From the NCBI GenBank assembly GCA_027452165.1, contig DAIDGX010000022.1, positions 62,001 through 126,000 on the forward strand: DNA of 64,000 bases. Reading direction: 5' to 3'. Positions 35,226 through 43,222 of this stretch are shown here, piece after piece; positions within the stretch are counted from its first letter, which is position 1; the number at the start of each line of letters is the position of its first letter. The translations under genes were made by a program, and so were the position numbers. This DNA comes from Vulcanimicrobiota bacterium (GTDB lineage Bacteria > Vulcanimicrobiota > Vulcanimicrobiia > Vulcanimicrobiales > Vulcanimicrobiaceae). The notes below the pieces were generated by a model, which ran no database searches, was not told where the DNA came from, and saw only the letters and a program-made list of their open reading frames with translations.

Positions 35226-36488
35226 CTACGCGTAGAGATCGCGCCGGGTCGCGGGGATCGTCACGCGCCCGTCGGCGTCGGGGCGTGCGAGCAACGACTG
35301 GTGCAGGCCGATCGATCCGCCTTCGAACGAGACCGCACTCGCTGCCATGTAGAGCCGCCACGTACGATATGCGCTGGCGCCTGCCTCCGCGATCGCGCAC
35401 TGAGCGTTTTTTTCAAGATTTGCGACCCAGGCGCGCAGCGTGCGCGCGTAGTGCTCTCGTAGGTTCTCAACGTCGCGTACCTCGAAGCCGGCGCGCTCGG
35501 CGATTGCGAGCATGTCGCCGATCGCGGTGAGATCACCGTCGGGAAAGACGTAGCGGCGGATGAAGGGGTTGCTCGGTGCGGTGCGCCCCGGACTCTGCTC
35601 GGTGATCCCGTGATTGAGAAAGAGGCCGCCCGGTCGCAGCGCGGTGAACGCCGCGCGAAAATACTCGGGCAACTTTTTGCGCCCGACGTGCTCCACCATG
35701 CCGATGCTCGCGATCCGATCGAAGCGCCGTTCGCCCAGATCGCGGTAGTCGAGCAGCTCCACGCTCGCGCGTTCGCGCAGCCCGAGTTCATCGATCCGCC
35801 GATTGGCTTCGTCGTGCTGCGCCCGGCTGAGCGTGATGCCGAGCGCGCGCGCTCCGCGCTGTGCCGCCGCGATGACGAGCGCACCCCAGCCGCAGCCGAT
35901 GTCGAGGAGCGTCATTCCAGGCTCCAGGCGCAGTTTGCGCAGCACGTACGCGAGCTTCGCACGTTGTGCATCGTCGAGCGCCGTGACGCCGTCGTCGTAG
36001 TATGCGCAGCTATAAACGAGCTCGCGATCGAGGAAGCCGCGATAGAACGCCACGGGCTGATCGTAGTGGAAGGCGATCGCGGCGCGGTCGCGTTCGCGTG
36101 AGTGCAGCGCGCCTTGCAATTCTGCTCCATTCACGTTTGCGCGGCTATTGCGCGGCAGCCGTGCGAGCAGCAGCGCAATGCGCGCGCGTTCGAGCATCGA
36201 ACGCGTCTCGCTCGCGTGGTTCAAGGTGGAGATTGCGGCGCAAAGATCGCCTTCTACGTCGATTGCACCGGTGACGAACGCTTCGCCTGCGTGTAGATCG
36301 ACGGGTGGTACGATCGCTCGGCGCAGGGCGCCTGGATCGTTCACGACAAAGGTAAAATCGCGTTCGGCCGTGATGCTCGGGAGTTCGCTTCCGTCCCAGA
36401 AGCGGATGTCGAAGTTGCGCCGGAAGCGGTCGCCGAAGACGGTTTCGAGAACGGCGGCGTTCCGCGCAACGGTCGCGGATTCGCTCAT
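35226..36488 (-). CDS. cfa: cyclopropane-fatty-acyl-phospholipid synthase
   Basis: A 420-residue S-adenosylmethionine-dependent enzyme that adds a methylene bridge to unsaturated membrane lipids. It has an N-terminal lipid-binding region, the SAM motif LLDIGCGWGAL and downstream signatures SIGMVEHVG and FLNHGITE. A bicarbonate-site cysteine lies in the CAYYDDG segment. The ATG at 36488 is used; a GTG at 36494 is equally possible. It is the last gene of a tight reverse-strand run (phosphomutase, dynamin-like, nagA, cfa). Confidence 0.9.
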   Translation of the reverse strand: MSESATVARNAAVLETVFGDRFRRNFDIRFWDGSELPSITAERDFTFVVNDPGALRRAIVPPVDLHAGEAFVTGAIDVEGDLCAAISTLNHASETRSMLERARIALLLARLPRNSRANVNGAELQGALHSRERDRAAIAFHYDQPVAFYRGFLDRELVYSCAYYDDGVTALDDAQRAKLAYVLRKLRLEPGMTLLDIGCGWGALVIAAAQRGARALGITLSRAQHDEANRRIDELGLRERASVELLDYRDLGERRFDRIASIGMVEHVGRKKLPEYFRAAFTALRPGGLFLNHGITEQSPGRTAPSNPFIRRYVFPDGDLTAIGDMLAIAERAGFEVRDVENLREHYARTLRAWVANLEKNAQCAIAEAGASAYRTWRLYMAASAVSFEGGSIGLHQSLLARPDADGRVTIPATRRDLYA

Positions 36489-36497
36489 GCGCACTCG

Positions 36498-37649
36498 CTA
36501 CGACGCGAGCGAGGCTTTCTCCGCGCCCAGACCGTACACGATCTCGCCGCCGACCATCGTGCCCAAGATCGTGTAGTCTTCGTCCCAGAACGAGAGGTCG
36601 GCGCGGTGGCCGGGAGCGATGCGTCCCATCTCGCTCTCGAGACCGAGTAACTTCGCCGGAGCGTGCGTTGCCGCCATCACCGCCTGGGCGAACGAGATCT
36701 CGGCGTACGACATGTAGTTACGTACCGCTTGGTCGATGCGCAGCGCACTTCCGGCGATCGTGCCGTCGGCTGCTCGCATGACGCCGCCGTCGATATGATA
36801 GCTCGGATCGGGGGCCGGCATGACGTCGGTTGCGAGCACGATGCGATCCCCGAGCGTGCGATACAGAATATCGACCATCACGGGCGAGACGTGGTAGCCG
36901 TCGCTGATGACGTGCACGAGCGTACGGCGGTCCTGAATGAACGCGGCGAGGATCGACGGATCGCGGTGGATCAGCGGCGGCATGCCGTTGAACGCATGCG
37001 TGAGCGAGCGGAAGCCGATGCCGATCGCAAGCAGACCTTCGCGATAGTGGGCGCCGGTGTGGCCGGCCGAACAGACCACGCCGTGCTCGAGAAAAACGCG
37101 CGTCGCATCGGCCGCGCCGTCGATCTCGGGCGCCATCGTGACGAGCAGGCACGCGCCTTTGCACGCATCGATCATCTCGCGCGCGCGATCTGCAGTCGGT
37201 GCGACCAGCCACTCGAGCCGGTGCACGCCGCGAAACTTTGGATTGAGGAACGGTCCCTCGAAATGGATGCCGAGACAGCGCGCGCCACGAGGCGCGTCTT
37301 CTTCGAGATCGTGTGCCGCATCCACGATATCCGAGGCGGCGTGTAGCATCGATTCGTACGGTGCGGTCATGATGCTCGCGACGAAACCCGTCGCGCCCAT
37401 GCGTGCGTACTCGACGGCCGCAACGGGCACGGCGTTGCCGTGATCGCGATTGAAGAGCAGTTCGCCCGCGCCGTTGGTGTGGACGTCGATCAACCCGGGT
37501 GCGATACTGCTGCCCGCGGGAAGGGTGAGATCCGATGCGCCGTCCGCGGGAAGTACCGCGGCGATGCGTCCGTTCTCGACGGCGAGCCGCCCGAACGTCG
37601 ATGTGCCGTCCCCGATCGCAAGAAATGCGGGGCCTATCGTCATCCTCAT
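36498..37649 (-). CDS. nagA: N-acetylglucosamine-6-phosphate deacetylase
   Basis: A 383-residue amidohydrolase that removes acetate from GlcNAc-6-phosphate during amino-sugar and cell-wall recycling. Metal and substrate residues are in DVHTNG, IHFEGPFL (metal Glu), SAGHTGA, LTHAFNGMPPL and the catalytic aspartate in ATDVMPA. ATG codons at 37649 and 37643 are both possible; the first is used. No nagB, nagE or other nag gene is adjacent. It begins 31 bases after the dynamin-like stop and ends 3-9 bases before cfa. Confidence 0.9.
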   Translation of the reverse strand: MRMTIGPAFLAIGDGTSTFGRLAVENGRIAAVLPADGASDLTLPAGSSIAPGLIDVHTNGAGELLFNRDHGNAVPVAAVEYARMGATGFVASIMTAPYESMLHAASDIVDAAHDLEEDAPRGARCLGIHFEGPFLNPKFRGVHRLEWLVAPTADRAREMIDACKGACLLVTMAPEIDGAADATRVFLEHGVVCSAGHTGAHYREGLLAIGIGFRSLTHAFNGMPPLIHRDPSILAAFIQDRRTLVHVISDGYHVSPVMVDILYRTLGDRIVLATDVMPAPDPSYHIDGGVMRAADGTIAGSALRIDQAVRNYMSYAEISFAQAVMAATHAPAKLLGLESEMGRIAPGHRADLSFWDEDYTILGTMVGGEIVYGLGAEKASLAS

Positions 37650-37680: not shown

Positions 37681-40401
37681 TCAGCGCCCCTTACCAAAGA
37701 TGCGTGCCAAGAACCCCGATCGCTGCTCGGTTGACGGCTTGGCCGGCTGCGCGACCGCTGCGTGCTCTTGCGCAGCGCGCGCCATACGCTCCAAGCGCAC
37801 CATGTGCGCCTCGGCGTGCGATTCGAGCGTCGTGCGTAGCGCCTCGGTTTCGTTCCAACCTGCGGGCGCGCGTCCGGCGCGGCGGGCCTCGTCATGCTCG
37901 TGCGCGGAGACGACGAAGATGCGCTCCGCGGGAATGTTACGCTCTTTCAAATAGGCCTGTGCGAGCTCGACGACGTGGCGCCGTTCGTTCGGCGCCTCGT
38001 TATCGGCGATCGTATGCACGAAATGCATCGGCTTGTTGAACTCGGCAACGCGTTCGTAGAGGCTCAACTCGCGATCGGAGAGTTGGCGCGAGAAGAGACA
38101 CAGAATCTCGCTTGCGTGCGATGCGGCGACCACGTTGACGTCCTCCGCACTTGCTTCGCCGGTGTCGAAAGCGGGCGCATGGACCAGGACGAGCTCGCGG
38201 GGCAGGGTCCACGGCACGAGCACGAGCACCGGCGCCTCGGACGCGTGCGCCGTCGCTTGCGCGAAGGGAATCTCGCGCCATTCGCCGCCGGCGCCGAGCG
38301 TATAGGCAGCCTCGCGCTCGCCGAATCTCACGTGAACGGGAAAACGCACGCTGCCGGCCACGTCGTCGTTGAGCACGGCGCGGCCGGCAAACGCATTGAT
38401 CAGACTCGTCTTGCCGCGTCGAAGTCCGCCAAGGACGGCGACACGCCAGCGCGACGGACGCAAGCCGAGATCGTAGAGATGCGGGTCGAAGCTCGAGGCA
38501 TCGTGTGCCATGCGCACCGCATGCGCTCCCGGATCGGCCGGCTCGATCTCTTCGTCGTGCTCCATGAACGTGCCGACAAGCGCACGCATCGCCTCCATTT
38601 CGGTCGCCAGTGCTTCGCGACGCTGTTCGAGCGCAGCCTGAACGCTCGCCGCGTCGTTGCGTTCGCGCGCGGCGAGCGCGCGGTCGATGCTGCCCACCTC
38701 GGCGTCGCGTTTATCGACCACGGCAGCAGAGATCGCTTGTGCGAGCTCATCGTACAGGTGTTGCAATCGTGCGGCGACACGCTCGGCAAACGCCAAGACC
38801 TCGGTGCGGAAGCGCGGAAAGATCTCGGCGCGCAGATCCGCGATCAACTCACGCTTCATGTATGCGCCGTCGCGGCGTGTCGCAAAGCGGGTGGCGATGT
38901 CGTGGACGAGCCCGATCGCGGGTCCCCCGATCGCCTCGAGTACGATCGTTGCGCGAATTGCATCGCGGACGTCGCCGTTCCAGAGGCTCGTGCCCGGTTC
39001 GGCGTTAAACGCGCGCGCCGCCGCGTCGTTGGGCGAGAAGCGCATCGGTACGATCGCTTCGGCGCGTTCGAGCGCGTGCTCGATCTCGCCAGCGACACCG
39101 GACGCGGTCGCTCGTGCGAACTCTTCGACGACGTGGGCGACGACGCGATCGACGATTATGTGGAGCCGGGCGCGGTCGCGAAGCCGTGCGACGTCGGCCG
39201 TGTCGAACGCTTGCGCGAGGGCGCGCTCCAGATCGTCGGCAAGATTGCCGCCGTGGTCTTGCATGGATTGACGCACGCGAGCACCAAGCGCAAGGAGCGA
39301 AGCGCCCTCAGCATGCGCGCGTTCATCGAGTTCGTGGAGGTGGGGCAAGAGCGCGGCTCGTTTGGCGGCGAGCGTGGCCTCGTCGAAGACGAGCATTGCG
39401 AGGTCGCCGTCGATCTGCGCGCGTTCGTCGGCGATCGCCGACGAAACGCGGTCGCGCACGCGGCGAAGGCGAGCACGTCCGGTATTGCGGATCAACGATG
39501 CGTCGAGCGCATCGAGAAAGCGAGGGAAACGGCTAGCTTGCGTGCGGCTCGCGTCGCCGGCGAGCTGCCCTTCGACGTACTCGCGTGCCGAGAGCGCGTA
39601 CACGTAGGTTCCCGGCGCATGGACGGCTGCGAGCGTCGCGATGCGATCGTAGGCATGCTCCCACGCCGGGCGTCCGTCGCCCTGCGGCTGCTCCCAGAGA
39701 TCGATCTTCGTCTGCACGATAAAGATCGAGTCGATATGTTGTCGTACGATGCCCAGAAACGATGCGTCGCCTTCGGTGAACGGCTGCTGCGTATCGATCA
39801 GGTAGAGCACCGCGTCGGCAGTCGGGAGAAATTGCAGCGTCGCGCGTCGATGTGCCGGGTTGATCGATGCGAGCCCGGGTGTGTCGGCGACGACGAAGCC
39901 ACGCTCGAGAAACGGCGAGTTCGTGGTGACGGCGACGCGCGTTGGCGCATCGCGCTCGTCCTTGGTTGCGTCGTGGATCGTTCCTACCCCGCCCGATCCG
40001 ACCGCAATAAATCGGTTCAGGCGATCGAGCGGAATGCGTTCCGTGCGCCCGTCGTCATAGATGGCGTGGGCCTCGTCGGCGGGGCCATATTCGAGTTCGG
40101 TAATCGTTGCGGTCGAAGGGTTGATGTCCGTAGCGAGGAGTCCCACAAGCGTCCGCTGACCGCCCGCCGATTCTTCATAGCGAAATTTGTTTAGGAGCGC
40201 GTTGAGCAAAAACGATTTGCCGCTCGAGAACTCGCCGACGACGGCGAGCACGAACCTTCCGCGCTCCAGTCGTGTGCGCGCGCGGCGCACGCTCTTGGCG
40301 CGCTCGTCTCCGAGCAACGGCTCGACCGCGAGCAGACGCGCGACGAGATCGTCGCGCGTCTGCTCGTAGCGACGCATGGCATCGGTATCGACGCGGCTCA
40401 C
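37681..40401 (-). CDS. tandem bacterial dynamin-like GTPase
   Basis: A 906-residue protein with two G-protein modules. The first has a complete set: P-loop GEFSSGKS (56-63), a conserved switch-I threonine region (NPSTATITE), DTPGL and TKID. A long helical stalk of about 400 residues follows. The second module starts near residue 655 with GGLRRGKTS, but its G3 reads HAPAFD and its G4 reads HTIADN, so GTP hydrolysis is probably weak or lost. This layout recalls Bacillus DynA, in which two dynamin units are fused, and other membrane-remodelling BDLPs. Start is GTG at 40401, 13 bases after the phosphomutase stop. A role in membrane stress or fusion is inferred. Confidence 0.83.
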   Translation of the reverse strand: MSRVDTDAMRRYEQTRDDLVARLLAVEPLLGDERAKSVRRARTRLERGRFVLAVVGEFSSGKSFLLNALLNKFRYEESAGGQRTLVGLLATDINPSTATITELEYGPADEAHAIYDDGRTERIPLDRLNRFIAVGSGGVGTIHDATKDERDAPTRVAVTTNSPFLERGFVVADTPGLASINPAHRRATLQFLPTADAVLYLIDTQQPFTEGDASFLGIVRQHIDSIFIVQTKIDLWEQPQGDGRPAWEHAYDRIATLAAVHAPGTYVYALSAREYVEGQLAGDASRTQASRFPRFLDALDASLIRNTGRARLRRVRDRVSSAIADERAQIDGDLAMLVFDEATLAAKRAALLPHLHELDERAHAEGASLLALGARVRQSMQDHGGNLADDLERALAQAFDTADVARLRDRARLHIIVDRVVAHVVEEFARATASGVAGEIEHALERAEAIVPMRFSPNDAAARAFNAEPGTSLWNGDVRDAIRATIVLEAIGGPAIGLVHDIATRFATRRDGAYMKRELIADLRAEIFPRFRTEVLAFAERVAARLQHLYDELAQAISAAVVDKRDAEVGSIDRALAARERNDAASVQAALEQRREALATEMEAMRALVGTFMEHDEEIEPADPGAHAVRMAHDASSFDPHLYDLGLRPSRWRVAVLGGLRRGKTSLINAFAGRAVLNDDVAGSVRFPVHVRFGEREAAYTLGAGGEWREIPFAQATAHASEAPVLVLVPWTLPRELVLVHAPAFDTGEASAEDVNVVAASHASEILCLFSRQLSDRELSLYERVAEFNKPMHFVHTIADNEAPNERRHVVELAQAYLKERNIPAERIFVVSAHEHDEARRAGRAPAGWNETEALRTTLESHAEAHMVRLERMARAAQEHAAVAQPAKPSTEQRSGFLARIFGKGR

Positions 40402-40414
40402 GGGGGAGTGACGC

Positions 40415-41764
40415 TTAGCGCCTGATCAACGCGAGGGCTTCGTCGCGCCGGCGTTCCATCAGGGCTTTCGTATCGCCTTCGACGTTGAGTCGCAGCAACG
40501 GCTCGGTGTTGGAGGGGCGAATGTTCATCCACCAGTCGGGGTACGAGATCGTGATGCCGTCGAGCCGGTCGATCGTGGCGTCCGCGTGGGCGGCCTCGAG
40601 TTCTTTGAGCTTCGCCGGGACGTCCTTGACCTCGCTGTTGATCTCGCCGGAGCGAAACCGCGTGTCGATCGGCGCGATGACCTTGCTTACCGGCATGCTC
40701 GCTTCGCTGAAGACTTCGAGGCACTGCATCAGCGCGATCATCCCCGAATCTGCGTACCAGTTGTTTTTGAAGTAGAAATGCCCCGAGTGTTCGCCGCCAA
40801 ATACGATGTCTTGCTCGCGCATCATCTTCTTGATGATCGAGTGTCCGACTTTCGAGCGGATCGCGATGCCGCCCGCCTTCTCGACGAGTTCGGGAACGCT
40901 GCGGCTGCAGATGAGATTGTAGAGGATCTTCGCTCCCGGTTGCTTCTTGAGCGTGTTGAGTGCGACGAGCGCCGTGACCGTGCTACCGTCGATCAACGCC
41001 CCCGTCTCATCCACGATGAACATCCGATCGGCATCCCCGTCGAACGCAACGCCGAGATCGCAACCGTGCTTGCGCACCGCTGCTTGCAGATCGACCATGT
41101 TCTCGGGTTCGATCGGGCTCGCGGGATGATTCGGGAAGGTGCCGTCGAGTTCGAAGTACAGCGGTAGTACCTCACAAGGAAGATGCTTGAACACATGGGG
41201 CACCGTTTCGCCCGCCATGCCGTTGCCTGCGTCGATGGCGACCTTGAACGGCTTGATGCGCGTGCGATCGATGAATCCAAGACAATGCTCGGCGAAATCG
41301 TCGAGCACGGAACGCTCGAGGATCGCGCCCGGTGTGGCCGCTGCGGGCGGGAGGTCGTTCGCCATGATGCGGTCGCGGATCGTTGCGAGGCCGGTCTCGA
41401 GCGAGATCGCTTCGGCTGCCTTCCGGGTGAACTTCATCCCGTTGTATTGCGCGGGGTTGTGCGATGCCGTGATCATCACGCCGCCATCGAAGCCGTACTT
41501 GCCGACCGCGAAGTAGAGCGCGTCGGTCGAGACCTGGCCGATGTACGTGACCTCGGCGCCCGTCTCGGTGGCGCCCCGCGCGAACGCCGCGTAGAGCCGC
41601 TCGCCCGACGGTCGCATGTCGCGCCCGACGACGATGCGCCGGCCCCCGACGAGATCGGGAAAGCAGCGTCCGATCGCATAGGCGATATCGTCGGATATCT
41701 CTGACGGATAAATGCCGCGAACGTCGTAGGATTTGAAAAGACCTGGGCTCAGATGCGTATGCAT
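40415..41764 (-). CDS. phosphomannomutase/phosphoglucomutase
   Basis: A 449-residue alpha-D-phosphohexomutase that interconverts hexose 1- and 6-phosphates. The phosphoserine is S101 in TASHNP, the magnesium loop is DGDADR, the sugar loop is GGEHSGH and the phosphate loop is RPSNTEP; all are intact. The GEHSG loop fits dual glucose/mannose enzymes of the AlgC/ManB type. The ATG at 41764 has GAGG 8 bases upstream. It is the first gene of the reverse-strand run and is divergent from the RsbU-like gene over 81 bases. Confidence 0.92.
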   Translation of the reverse strand: MHTHLSPGLFKSYDVRGIYPSEISDDIAYAIGRCFPDLVGGRRIVVGRDMRPSGERLYAAFARGATETGAEVTYIGQVSTDALYFAVGKYGFDGGVMITASHNPAQYNGMKFTRKAAEAISLETGLATIRDRIMANDLPPAAATPGAILERSVLDDFAEHCLGFIDRTRIKPFKVAIDAGNGMAGETVPHVFKHLPCEVLPLYFELDGTFPNHPASPIEPENMVDLQAAVRKHGCDLGVAFDGDADRMFIVDETGALIDGSTVTALVALNTLKKQPGAKILYNLICSRSVPELVEKAGGIAIRSKVGHSIIKKMMREQDIVFGGEHSGHFYFKNNWYADSGMIALMQCLEVFSEASMPVSKVIAPIDTRFRSGEINSEVKDVPAKLKELEAAHADATIDRLDGITISYPDWWMNIRPSNTEPLLRLNVEGDTKALMERRRDEALALIRR

Positions 41765-41845: not shown

Positions 41846-43222
41846 GTGAAGAGCAGTCGTTCGTTTACGTCGATTCCCGGAACGGTCGTGTGGACGGCTT
41901 TCCTTGTGATCGCGGTCGTGATCGCGGTGCAAGGGGCATTCCAAACTCGAGCCTCGATTGCCGCGACCTTCGCGGCGCAGTCGCGCATCGTGCGCGCGCA
42001 GCTTGCGCTCGAGGAGATGCGCCGCCTGCAGATCGACGAGGAGAACGCCGTGCGCGGCTTCTCCCTTACGCACGACCCATTCTATTATACGCAGTACCTG
42101 GGCTTCGTGGCACGGTTCGACGGCAAGCTTGTGGAGGTTCGTCGCGCGCTCCATGCCGAGGGCCTCGTGGCCGGAGCCGGATTGCTAAGCGATTACGCTG
42201 CGTTGCAGGGCAGCTGGCGCGGTAAAATCGCCGAGCCCTTGCTCGCACATCCCGGACGCGACGTCACGTCGATCGACAAAGAGAACAAAGTCTTCACCGA
42301 CGTCGAAGATCGTGCGGTGCAATCGTTGCGCGATATGCTTGCCGCGCGTAGCGCCTCGCTCACGCGTAGCACCCAAGAACAGGTGAATCGCACCGCGTAC
42401 GCCCGAGCGTTCTTCGTGCTCCTCTTCGGGCTGCTGGCGATCCTTTTTAACGGCTTTCGTGGACGGCTGAATCGGGAACTCGAAGAAGAGCGCACGACGA
42501 CCGAGATTCTGCAGCGGGCGTTCCGCAGCGAAACCGTTCCCTTGCCCAATTGCGAGGTCGGGAGCGCGTACCTCGCGGCAAGCAGCCACTTGGCCGTCGG
42601 CGGTGACGTGTTCGATCTCTACCGGCTCTCCGATACGCTCGCCTTGCTACTGATTGCCGACGTGAGCGGTAAGGGCATCGACGCAGCCGTCCTTACCGCG
42701 TTCATCAAATTTACGATTCGCGGTATCGCGCTACGCCGCCGCGATCCGGGCGCGATTTTACAAGAGTTCAACACGGCATTTTCGCAGACGGTCGAAAACC
42801 CGTACCTGTTCGTCTCGATGTTCGTCGGTGTGCTCGACACGGAAACCTTACAGTTGCGCTACGCGAGCGCGGGGCATGATTCGGCCTTTATTCGTCGTTC
42901 CACGAACGTGCAGCAACTCATGGTTACGGGGCCGGTGCTCGGCGTGATGGAGGAACCGTTCGGCTCCAAGGTCGTCTTTCTGGAAGACGGCGAGACCGTG
43001 GTGCTCGCAACGGACGGGTTGACGGAGGCGCGCAACCGCCAGGGCCGTTTGCTTGGCGAAGAAGGCGCGAAAGCCCTGATTGCCGCGAGCAGCGCGCAGC
43101 CGCAATTGCTCGCCGACGAGTTGCTTGCGCAGGTACGCGCGCTCGGCGGCAACGAGATGCGCGACGATCTCGCCGTGCTGGCGGTGCGCGTTCACGAAGC
43201 GGGGTCGAGCGATGCTTCGTAA
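41846..43222 (+). CDS. membrane-bound SpoIIE/RsbU-type serine phosphatase with CHASE3-like sensor
   Basis: A 458-residue PP2C-type phosphatase. A first span (about residues 12-32) and a second (about 187-207) enclose an extracytoplasmic helical sensor resembling CHASE3 (EENAVRGFSLTHDPFYY). The catalytic domain (235-455) has the PP2C metal motifs GGDVFDLY, ADVSGKG, TDGLTEA and DDLAVLAVR. Such proteins dephosphorylate anti-sigma-factor antagonists in partner-switching stress pathways; no such partner is in the window. The start is GTG at 41846. The following small exported-protein gene overlaps by 11 bases. Confidence 0.86.
   Translation: MKSSRSFTSIPGTVVWTAFLVIAVVIAVQGAFQTRASIAATFAAQSRIVRAQLALEEMRRLQIDEENAVRGFSLTHDPFYYTQYLGFVARFDGKLVEVRRALHAEGLVAGAGLLSDYAALQGSWRGKIAEPLLAHPGRDVTSIDKENKVFTDVEDRAVQSLRDMLAARSASLTRSTQEQVNRTAYARAFFVLLFGLLAILFNGFRGRLNRELEEERTTTEILQRAFRSETVPLPNCEVGSAYLAASSHLAVGGDVFDLYRLSDTLALLLIADVSGKGIDAAVLTAFIKFTIRGIALRRRDPGAILQEFNTAFSQTVENPYLFVSMFVGVLDTETLQLRYASAGHDSAFIRRSTNVQQLMVTGPVLGVMEEPFGSKVVFLEDGETVVLATDGLTEARNRQGRLLGEEGAKALIAASSAQPQLLADELLAQVRALGGNEMRDDLAVLAVRVHEAGSSDAS

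Follow-up and report, generated by a model that had tools for sequence, protein, structure and literature searches.

A bacterial dynamin followed by a trunk-less, degenerate second G domain in one family of Vulcanimicrobiota

INTRODUCTION

Dynamin heads act by pairing, and passages from three papers present paired, unlike dynamins as common in bacteria (PMC6104087, PMC6715688, PMC8844932). The available part of one of these describes most bacterial dynamins as operon pairs (PMC6104087), and excerpts from two report that paired bacterial heads activate each other and that DynA needs GTP in both of its heads (PMC6104087, PMC8844932). Here, we describe a dynamin gene located in a 64,000-nucleotide stretch, hereafter the window, of contig DAIDGX010000022.1 (positions 62,001 to 126,000, forward strand; assembly GCA_027452165.1) from a bacterium of the Vulcanimicrobiaceae, in the phylum Vulcanimicrobiota. 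An original prediction, made from the letters of the window, had proposed a fused double dynamin with an active and a regulatory half. We find that the protein is almost certainly composed of one complete dynamin followed by a second G domain devoid of a trunk, a helix, and a basic tail. The first and second G domains are called G1 and G2 below. Our literature searches turned up no complete dynamin fused to a trunk-less degenerate dynamin head. Since one of its heads is intact and the other altered by nature, such a chain would allow the contribution of each head to be told apart with no need for mutagenesis. It comes, moreover, from a phylum that is represented here almost exclusively by metagenome bins.

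RESULTS

One complete dynamin and an additional G domain in a single chain

The gene is a single open reading frame (ORF) of 906 amino acids (aa) on the minus strand, with a GTG start at 40401 and a stop codon at 37681-37683. The Pfam model Dynamin_N matched two stretches of the protein; in a scan of the window's whole genome, the second match (E-value 6.7e-5) covered the second P-loop and shared the reading frame of the first. Among the Pfam and NCBIfam models reported for the protein, none spans the whole chain.

A full-length AlphaFold2 (AF2) model was built from 28 family sequences, with a predicted local distance difference test score (pLDDT) of 84.2 and a predicted template modelling score (pTM) of 0.67. 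It exhibited neck helices at residues 8-47, a G domain up to residue ~290, a helical trunk at 292-614, and a weakly predicted linker. Beyond the linker, residues 641-845 formed a second alpha/beta domain and residues 852-884 a helix, after which the chain was disordered. Using VIA-align, residues 17-609 were superposed on IniA (6j73; Z 22.6, root-mean-square deviation [rmsd] 4.7, 502 residues aligned) and residues 4-617 on BDLP (2j69; Z 20.3, rmsd 5.7, 561 aligned). Residues 641-893 matched G domains of the dynamin superfamily and of other proteins. As modelled, residues 4-617 are one complete BDLP/IniA-type dynamin, with a neck, an intact G domain, and a trunk, and residues 641-884 add another dynamin G domain and a single helix, which lack a trunk of their own and are followed by a conserved basic tail.

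Inside the trunk, residues 481-499 form the most hydrophobic 19-residue stretch of the whole protein. The pattern of the tail is kept in 37 of 42 distinct sequences, and its conservation is centered on residues 896-903 (entropy 1.23 bits vs 2.95 for residues 885-893). A possibility was that the tail forms an amphipathic helix, but we rejected it, as its hydrophobic moment ranks only ~190th among the 12-residue segments of the protein. Because of this low rank, it is by its conservation that the tail suggests a role at the membrane.

The C-terminal part folds as a dynamin-type G domain

When modelled alone from 23 sequences, G2 reached a pLDDT of 87.1 and a pTM of 0.83. The G domain of IniA was its closest structural match (Z 23.5, rmsd 2.8, 245 aligned), mitofusin 1 (Mfn1) came next (Z 20.7), and Foldseek returned the same two proteins on top. 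In the full-length comparison, EHD proteins had led for G2 (Z 18.1), and IniA took the lead once G2 was folded alone. Profile comparisons agreed: the G2 profile matched the sequences of BDLP (2e-5) and Mfn1 (4e-5) in the PDB over most of the domain, and hhalign aligned the G1 and G2 profiles with a probability of 95.7 (E 9.7e-9). With G2 alone as the query, all 23 alignment members matched Dynamin_N at E <= 0.1 (best 2.5e-8), the window's own G2 scoring 24.3 bits, under the 27-bit cut-off. Collectively, the models identify the C-terminal part as a dynamin-type G domain; the outcome that the original prediction had named as fatal to itself, a C-terminal half that does not model as a G domain, was not obtained.

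G2 has kept its P-loop and lost its switch residues

Motifs were counted in 42 distinct sequences, drawn from 64 (30 + 34); L068 and L074, which gave only short frames, were left out (L, G, and C numbers are our handles for loci, genomes, and contigs). As predicted, the first G module is complete: GEFSSGKS (residues 56-63), NPSTA (94-98), DTPG (173-176), TKID (231-234), and LSAR were intact in all 42. Also as predicted, a second P-loop, GGLRRGKTS, is present at residues 658-666, and the second module is without DxxG and NKxD. After residue 600, D.PG and [TN]K.D each occurred in 0 of 42 sequences, 41 of which reach that region (L069 is cut off). This absence throughout the family indicated a family trait and not a sequencing accident.

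Alignment of G2 with G1 showed what stands in place of these motifs. DTPG corresponds to HAPA followed by FDTG, TKID corresponds to TIAD, and the SA of the last motif is kept. The switch-II Asp is replaced by His in 41/41 sequences reaching the region, and the P-loop is kept in the same 41. The position of G2 aligned with the switch-I Thr97 of G1 is occupied by Ala, Val, Ile, Met, or Leu in all 30 sequences compared. The altered G4 motif, HT.AD, has three exceptions among the 42 sequences: L058 reads HTMGD, L063 is frame-broken, and L069 is incomplete.

As a control, we inspected dynamins with ordinary heads. All 19 ordinary dynamins read from the phylum carried D[TS]PG, as did each head of Bacillus velezensis DynA. 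In contrast, the [TN]K.D pattern was found in only 12 of these 19 (absent in 7) and in neither DynA head. Given these controls, it is the missing switch-II Asp that is informative, and not the missing G4 Lys; we therefore rejected the latter as a sign of dead catalysis, and the missing NKxD says little by itself. Judging from its motifs, G2 is quite likely catalytically dead or non-canonical, an estimate that we lowered slightly in view of the limited diagnostic value of G4.

G2 is under constraint

Pairwise ratios of nonsynonymous to synonymous changes (dN/dS) with two close relatives were 0.08 and 0.10 for G1, 0.17 and 0.16 for the trunk, and 0.10 and 0.13 for G2, values which are rough as dS was 0.65-1.1. 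Over 23 sequences each, mean column identity reached 72% in G1 and 67% in G2, as compared with 51% in the trunk region. Within G2, the stretches equivalent to motifs (P-loop, switch II, SRQLS, and G4) were the most conserved (0.65 bits vs 1.16 for the rest). Homologues are 47-82% identical to the window protein, and we saw no intact family gene without G2: the copies devoid of it end at contig ends or have broken frames. By these measures, G2 experiences strong purifying selection and looks like a maintained pseudo-GTPase rather than debris.

Within the phylum, the two-domain form was found in one family

Genome profile searches were run within the phylum, and a contig scan used two patterns, both derived from G1, so that relatives elsewhere may be missed. 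The G2 profile matched 49 of 149 phylum genomes at E <= 6.5e-29, all from one family, the best other protein scoring 9.4e-7. The whole-protein profile matched 54 of 99 family genomes at E <= 1e-20; one of them, G127, has an ordinary 600-aa dynamin, which leaves 53, some of which are cut by contig ends upstream of G2. No strong match was found in the 50 other genomes of Vulcanimicrobiota (Eremiobacterota) outside the family.

Contigs carrying relatives mostly come from metagenome bins labelled Eremiobacterota or "bacterium". The L069 and L071 contigs are titled Rhodospirillales; their pmm products are 73-75% identical to that of the window and the nagA product of L071 is 66% identical to its counterpart there, and by this similarity they are probably mislabelled Vulcanimicrobiota bins.

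In a tree of 48 rows including 16 family members, the G1 and the G2 domains each fell on one side of a branch (100/99 and 100/100). As each is confined to one side, a single origin of the two-domain form, predating the split of the 16 members, is probable. The tree grouped G2 with no other dynamin and came with a long-branch warning; G2 may stem from fusion with a neighbouring dynamin or from internal duplication.

In the window's genome (2.6 Mb, ~95% complete), no other dynamin was found among Dynamin_N matches at E <= 1e-3, two further matches being read by eye as MnmE and Der. In other members of the phylum, two or three dynamin-type genes are clustered at G001:C20:54026-64511, G043:C6:5777-9971, and G088:C47:11799-16350. 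The copy at G043:C7:173190-176012 lies within a 1440-aa open frame, the usual length being ~900. A 920-aa frame of G146 was considered as a second protein with two G domains and rejected, since it has one P-loop (position 371) and its upstream frame is not dynamin-like.

A scan of viral contigs found no relative. The BFVD fold matches listed, which we set aside, were mostly giant-virus proteins of the dynamin or other GTPase kinds. In plasmid records, G2 alone gave nothing at E 0.01 and the whole protein had 16 matches, each of which scored best somewhere in residues 1-305. In phage records, the whole protein had one match, to residues 29-271.

The dynamin gene sits within a pmm-nagA pair

On the minus strand of the window, pmm, the dynamin gene, nagA, and cfa follow each other with gaps of 13, 31, and 3 bases (Table 1). 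We compared 41 loci, of which 36 were translated and five run off contigs (L064, L067, L072, L073, and L075). pmm lies upstream in 40 of them, L043 starting inside the gene, at a distance that reaches 7 kb in L067 and 2.5 kb in L071. nagA lies downstream in 35, the six misses being loci that run off contigs, and cfa is nearby in only six, which are among the closest relatives.

In the 37 genomes with the three full genes on one contig (among them G114, G116, G118, and G119), the distance between dynamin and nagA was always 28-121 bases, and that between dynamin and pmm varied from an overlap to 2.5 kb. Among the 46 family genomes without the dynamin, 37 have a close match to pmm as well as a nagA, and in 35 of them both lie on one contig. 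In 34 of these 35, the two genes are within 200 bases (8-200), the remaining genome, G029, having 863 bases between them. G045, G050, and G052 are among the dynamin-less genomes with such a tight pair. The two genes are conserved, and the dynamin is thus a clean presence/absence insert, either added to or lost from a pmm-nagA pair that also occurs on its own.

The fixed position of the gene suggests co-expression with its neighbours. The original prediction had taken the operon as support for a role in envelope maintenance. The three genes do form a run with the dynamin, but cfa is there in few loci and the pmm-nagA linkage is independent of the dynamin; the operon is therefore weak evidence for a role in sugar-nucleotide or wall metabolism, and this part of the prediction came out weakened.

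Other features were noticed around the gene. In some of the relatives, pmm and the dynamin are separated by a ferritin-like (Dps-like) ORF of ~166-172 aa, as at L038:7482-7979 and L046:3810-4307 (Pfam Ferritin, E 1.2e-24 and 6.8e-27); similar ORFs occur in L048, L050, L052, L053, L064, L066, and L070. The divergent neighbour of pmm (41846-43222, plus strand) encodes a protein with CHASE3-like and SpoIIE phosphatase parts and stands beside pmm in many relatives as well. Most of the dynamin gene is overlapped in antisense by a 766-aa open frame (37894-40194, plus strand), and other long antisense frames are likewise present. A scan for promoters and terminators was uninformative (two promoter-like sites vs 0.9 expected, four terminator-like vs 5.1 expected).

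Table 1. Features of the dynamin gene and its neighbours, in window coordinates
Feature	Position	Strand	Remarks
pmm/pgm-type phosphohexomutase gene, upstream	40415..41764	-	13-base gap to the dynamin gene
Whole dynamin gene	37681..40401	-	906 aa; Dynamin_N E 4e-22
N-terminal neck helices, residues 5-47	40261..40389	-	AF2 helices 8-29 and 32-47; within the IniA/BDLP alignments
G1, first G domain, residues 48-300	39502..40260	-	motifs intact
G1 P-loop GEFSSGKS, residues 56-63	40213..40236	-	42/42
G1 switch II DTPG, residues 173-176	39874..39885	-	42/42
G1 G4 motif TKID, residues 231-234	39700..39711	-	42/42
Single helical trunk and return to neck, residues 301-614	38560..39501	-	AF2 helices 292-614
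Possible membrane paddle, residues 478-500	38902..38970	-	in trunk; putative role, from BDLP
Linker joining the dynamin to G2, residues 615-640	38482..38559	-	pLDDT <50 at 627-636
G2, second, degenerate G domain, residues 641-850	37852..38481	-	profile matches, models
G2 P-loop GGLRRGKTS, residues 658-666	38404..38430	-	GxxxRGK[ST] 41/42; L069 ends earlier
G2 altered switch II HAPAFDTG, residues 741-748	38158..38181	-	H.P.FD.G 41/42; L069 incomplete
G2 altered G4 HTIAD, residues 796-800	38002..38016	-	Lys absent, Asp kept; HT.AD 39/42
C-terminal helix after G2, residues 851-884	37750..37851	-	helix 852-884 (full model), 225-257 (domain model)
Disordered linker and basic/aromatic tail ending in GFLARIFGKGR, residues 885-906	37684..37749	-	putative membrane role
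nagA-like N-acetylglucosamine-6-phosphate deacetylase gene, downstream	36498..37649	-	210.4 bits, under the 225.65 cut-off
Cyclopropane-fatty-acid-synthase-like gene (cfa), last of run	35226..36494	-	not conserved in cluster

DISCUSSION

A proposed division into a motor head and a regulatory head

We favour, with a probability of about 0.5, the reading that the protein is one complete BDLP/IniA-type dynamin to which a trunk-less pseudo-GTPase has been added, G1 being the motor and G2 its regulator in cis. G1 would hydrolyse GTP and would act together with the one trunk, including the hydrophobic segment of the latter, to remodel a membrane, where the basic tail may help hold the protein. Having lost both the switch-I Thr and the switch-II Asp, G2 is probably incapable of canonical GTP hydrolysis; keeping its P-loop and the Thr and Asp of G4, it may still bind a nucleotide or, failing that, preserve the shape of the nucleotide face. 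In BDLP, the trunk folds back and the C-terminus ends up near the neck, so a G2 placed after such a trunk would rest beside G1. From there, it might serve as a resident pseudo-partner that docks on or masks the dimer face of G1, thereby setting when G1 pairs and fires; alternatively, it could supply the second half of the G-G pair.

By analogy with paired bacterial dynamins, action of G2 on G1 in cis is close to an even bet, falling a little short of it. The more specific notion that the pseudo-GTPase head is the chain's own dimer partner or brake, one head being the motor and the other a non-hydrolysing sensor, is put forward tentatively, with the odds somewhat against it. If true, this would be a naturally asymmetric dynamin, whose chain would itself provide for the G-G pairing that otherwise takes two molecules. 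As for the predicted split into an active and a regulatory part, what stood is that the chain combines an intact G domain with a degenerate one and that the latter is strongly conserved, which keeps the split plausible; what did not stand is its attribution to two dynamin halves.

Several observations weigh against regulation of G1 by G2. The full-length pTM leaves the relative placement of G1 and G2 loose, and their contact is something that we infer. For the 26-codon linker, dN/dS values (0.13 and 0.10) do not exceed those of G2, so low values are not specific to a functional nucleotide site. G4 deviates in dynamins with an intact switch II, too. Switch I of G2 is not conserved (1.11 bits), and the long G2 stem in the tree, 3.69 changes per column, would fit a move to an unrelated binding role. 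Last, some carriers also have ordinary dynamins (e.g., G001 and G043), so an argument built on a lone dynamin fails at the level of the family.

Alternative explanations

The poorly conserved switch I would also suit a G2 that is a docking module for a protein other than G1, for example an envelope or metabolic protein, its P-loop being structural and its nucleotide state irrelevant. Scaffold pseudo-GTPases are known, and, according to a passage of one paper, p190RhoGAP has three pseudo-GTPase domains of which two fail to bind nucleotide (PMC10211241); the constant closeness of the gene to nagA could be read in the same way. However, all 41 sequences that reach the P-loop have kept its Lys and Ser/Thr, and the motifs of the nucleotide face, switch I excepted, are the most conserved part of G2. 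We consider this explanation rather unlikely.

Conservation of the nucleotide face might instead reflect activity. G2 would then be a non-canonical nucleotide hydrolase, with His741, Asp746, and Gly748 standing in for switch II. H.P.FD.G is indeed as conserved as a catalytic motif, next to an intact P-loop, and G4 deviations are seen in dynamins with a normal switch II, too. Yet the switch-I Thr and the switch-II Asp are lost together, which is the usual picture of catalytic loss, and we know of no dynamin with the His/Asp/Gly arrangement seen here. From its residues, such a hydrolase seems quite unlikely.

A guard against phages or membrane stress, of the LeoA/LeoBC or DynA kind, was suggested by PADLOC matches to LeoA (E 6.9e-17) and LeoBC (E 4.8e-14) over the first ~600 residues, and protection from phages by DynA is mentioned in an excerpt (PMC8844932). 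But such matches are expected for any dynamin, the fixed neighbours pmm and nagA are of the housekeeping type, and no second Leo-type gene adjoins, which makes a guard improbable. Finally, a DynA-type fused double dynamin whose second half is decaying toward loss, as the two G domains per chain of Bacillus DynA and a G2 without its own trunk could evoke, is hard to credit given the purifying selection on G2, its conservation across homologues, and the lack of any family member seen to lose G2 from an otherwise intact gene.

Comparison with known dynamins and pseudo-GTPases

The favoured reading, a complete dynamin with an added pseudo-GTPase, is best placed by comparison with described proteins. 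IniA of Mycobacterium and BDLP1 of Nostoc punctiforme share with residues 4-617 the neck, the intact G domain, and the trunk, and it is again the IniA G domain that lies closest to G2 taken alone. Both proteins end after the neck and trunk, whereas here the chain continues into a degenerate G domain, a helix, and a basic tail.

DynA of Bacillus has, like the protein studied here, two dynamin G domains per polypeptide. The DynA of B. velezensis is, however, 1192 aa long, has DTPG in both heads, and extends for ~575 aa from the second P-loop on, as compared with 906 aa, a lost second DTPG, and ~248 aa from the second P-loop on in our case; the NCBIfam DynA model gave 66.6 bits against a cut-off of 1600. 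The predicted fused double dynamin with two halves thus gave way, on comparison with DynA, to a chain with a single trunk and a second unit without one.

The Cj-DLP1/DLP2 and LeoA/LeoBC pairs resemble this protein in that two unlike dynamin heads work together, as part of one paper describes (PMC6104087), and the LeoBC profile reaches residues 35-603 of the protein. Those operon-paired dynamins are two dynamins from two genes, while here a full dynamin and a lone head come from one.

The pseudo-GTPases p190RhoGAP, Rnd3, and CENP-M are Ras/Rho-like. Excerpts of one paper describe them as having kept the fold, lost catalytic motifs, and acquired regulatory or scaffold uses, as G2 may have done (PMC10211241); in contrast to them, the pseudo-domain here is of the dynamin type and shares its chain with a dynamin whose motifs are intact. 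Although dynamins, two-headed dynamins, and pseudo-GTPases have each been described, our literature searches did not bring up the combination of a complete dynamin and such a head in one chain.

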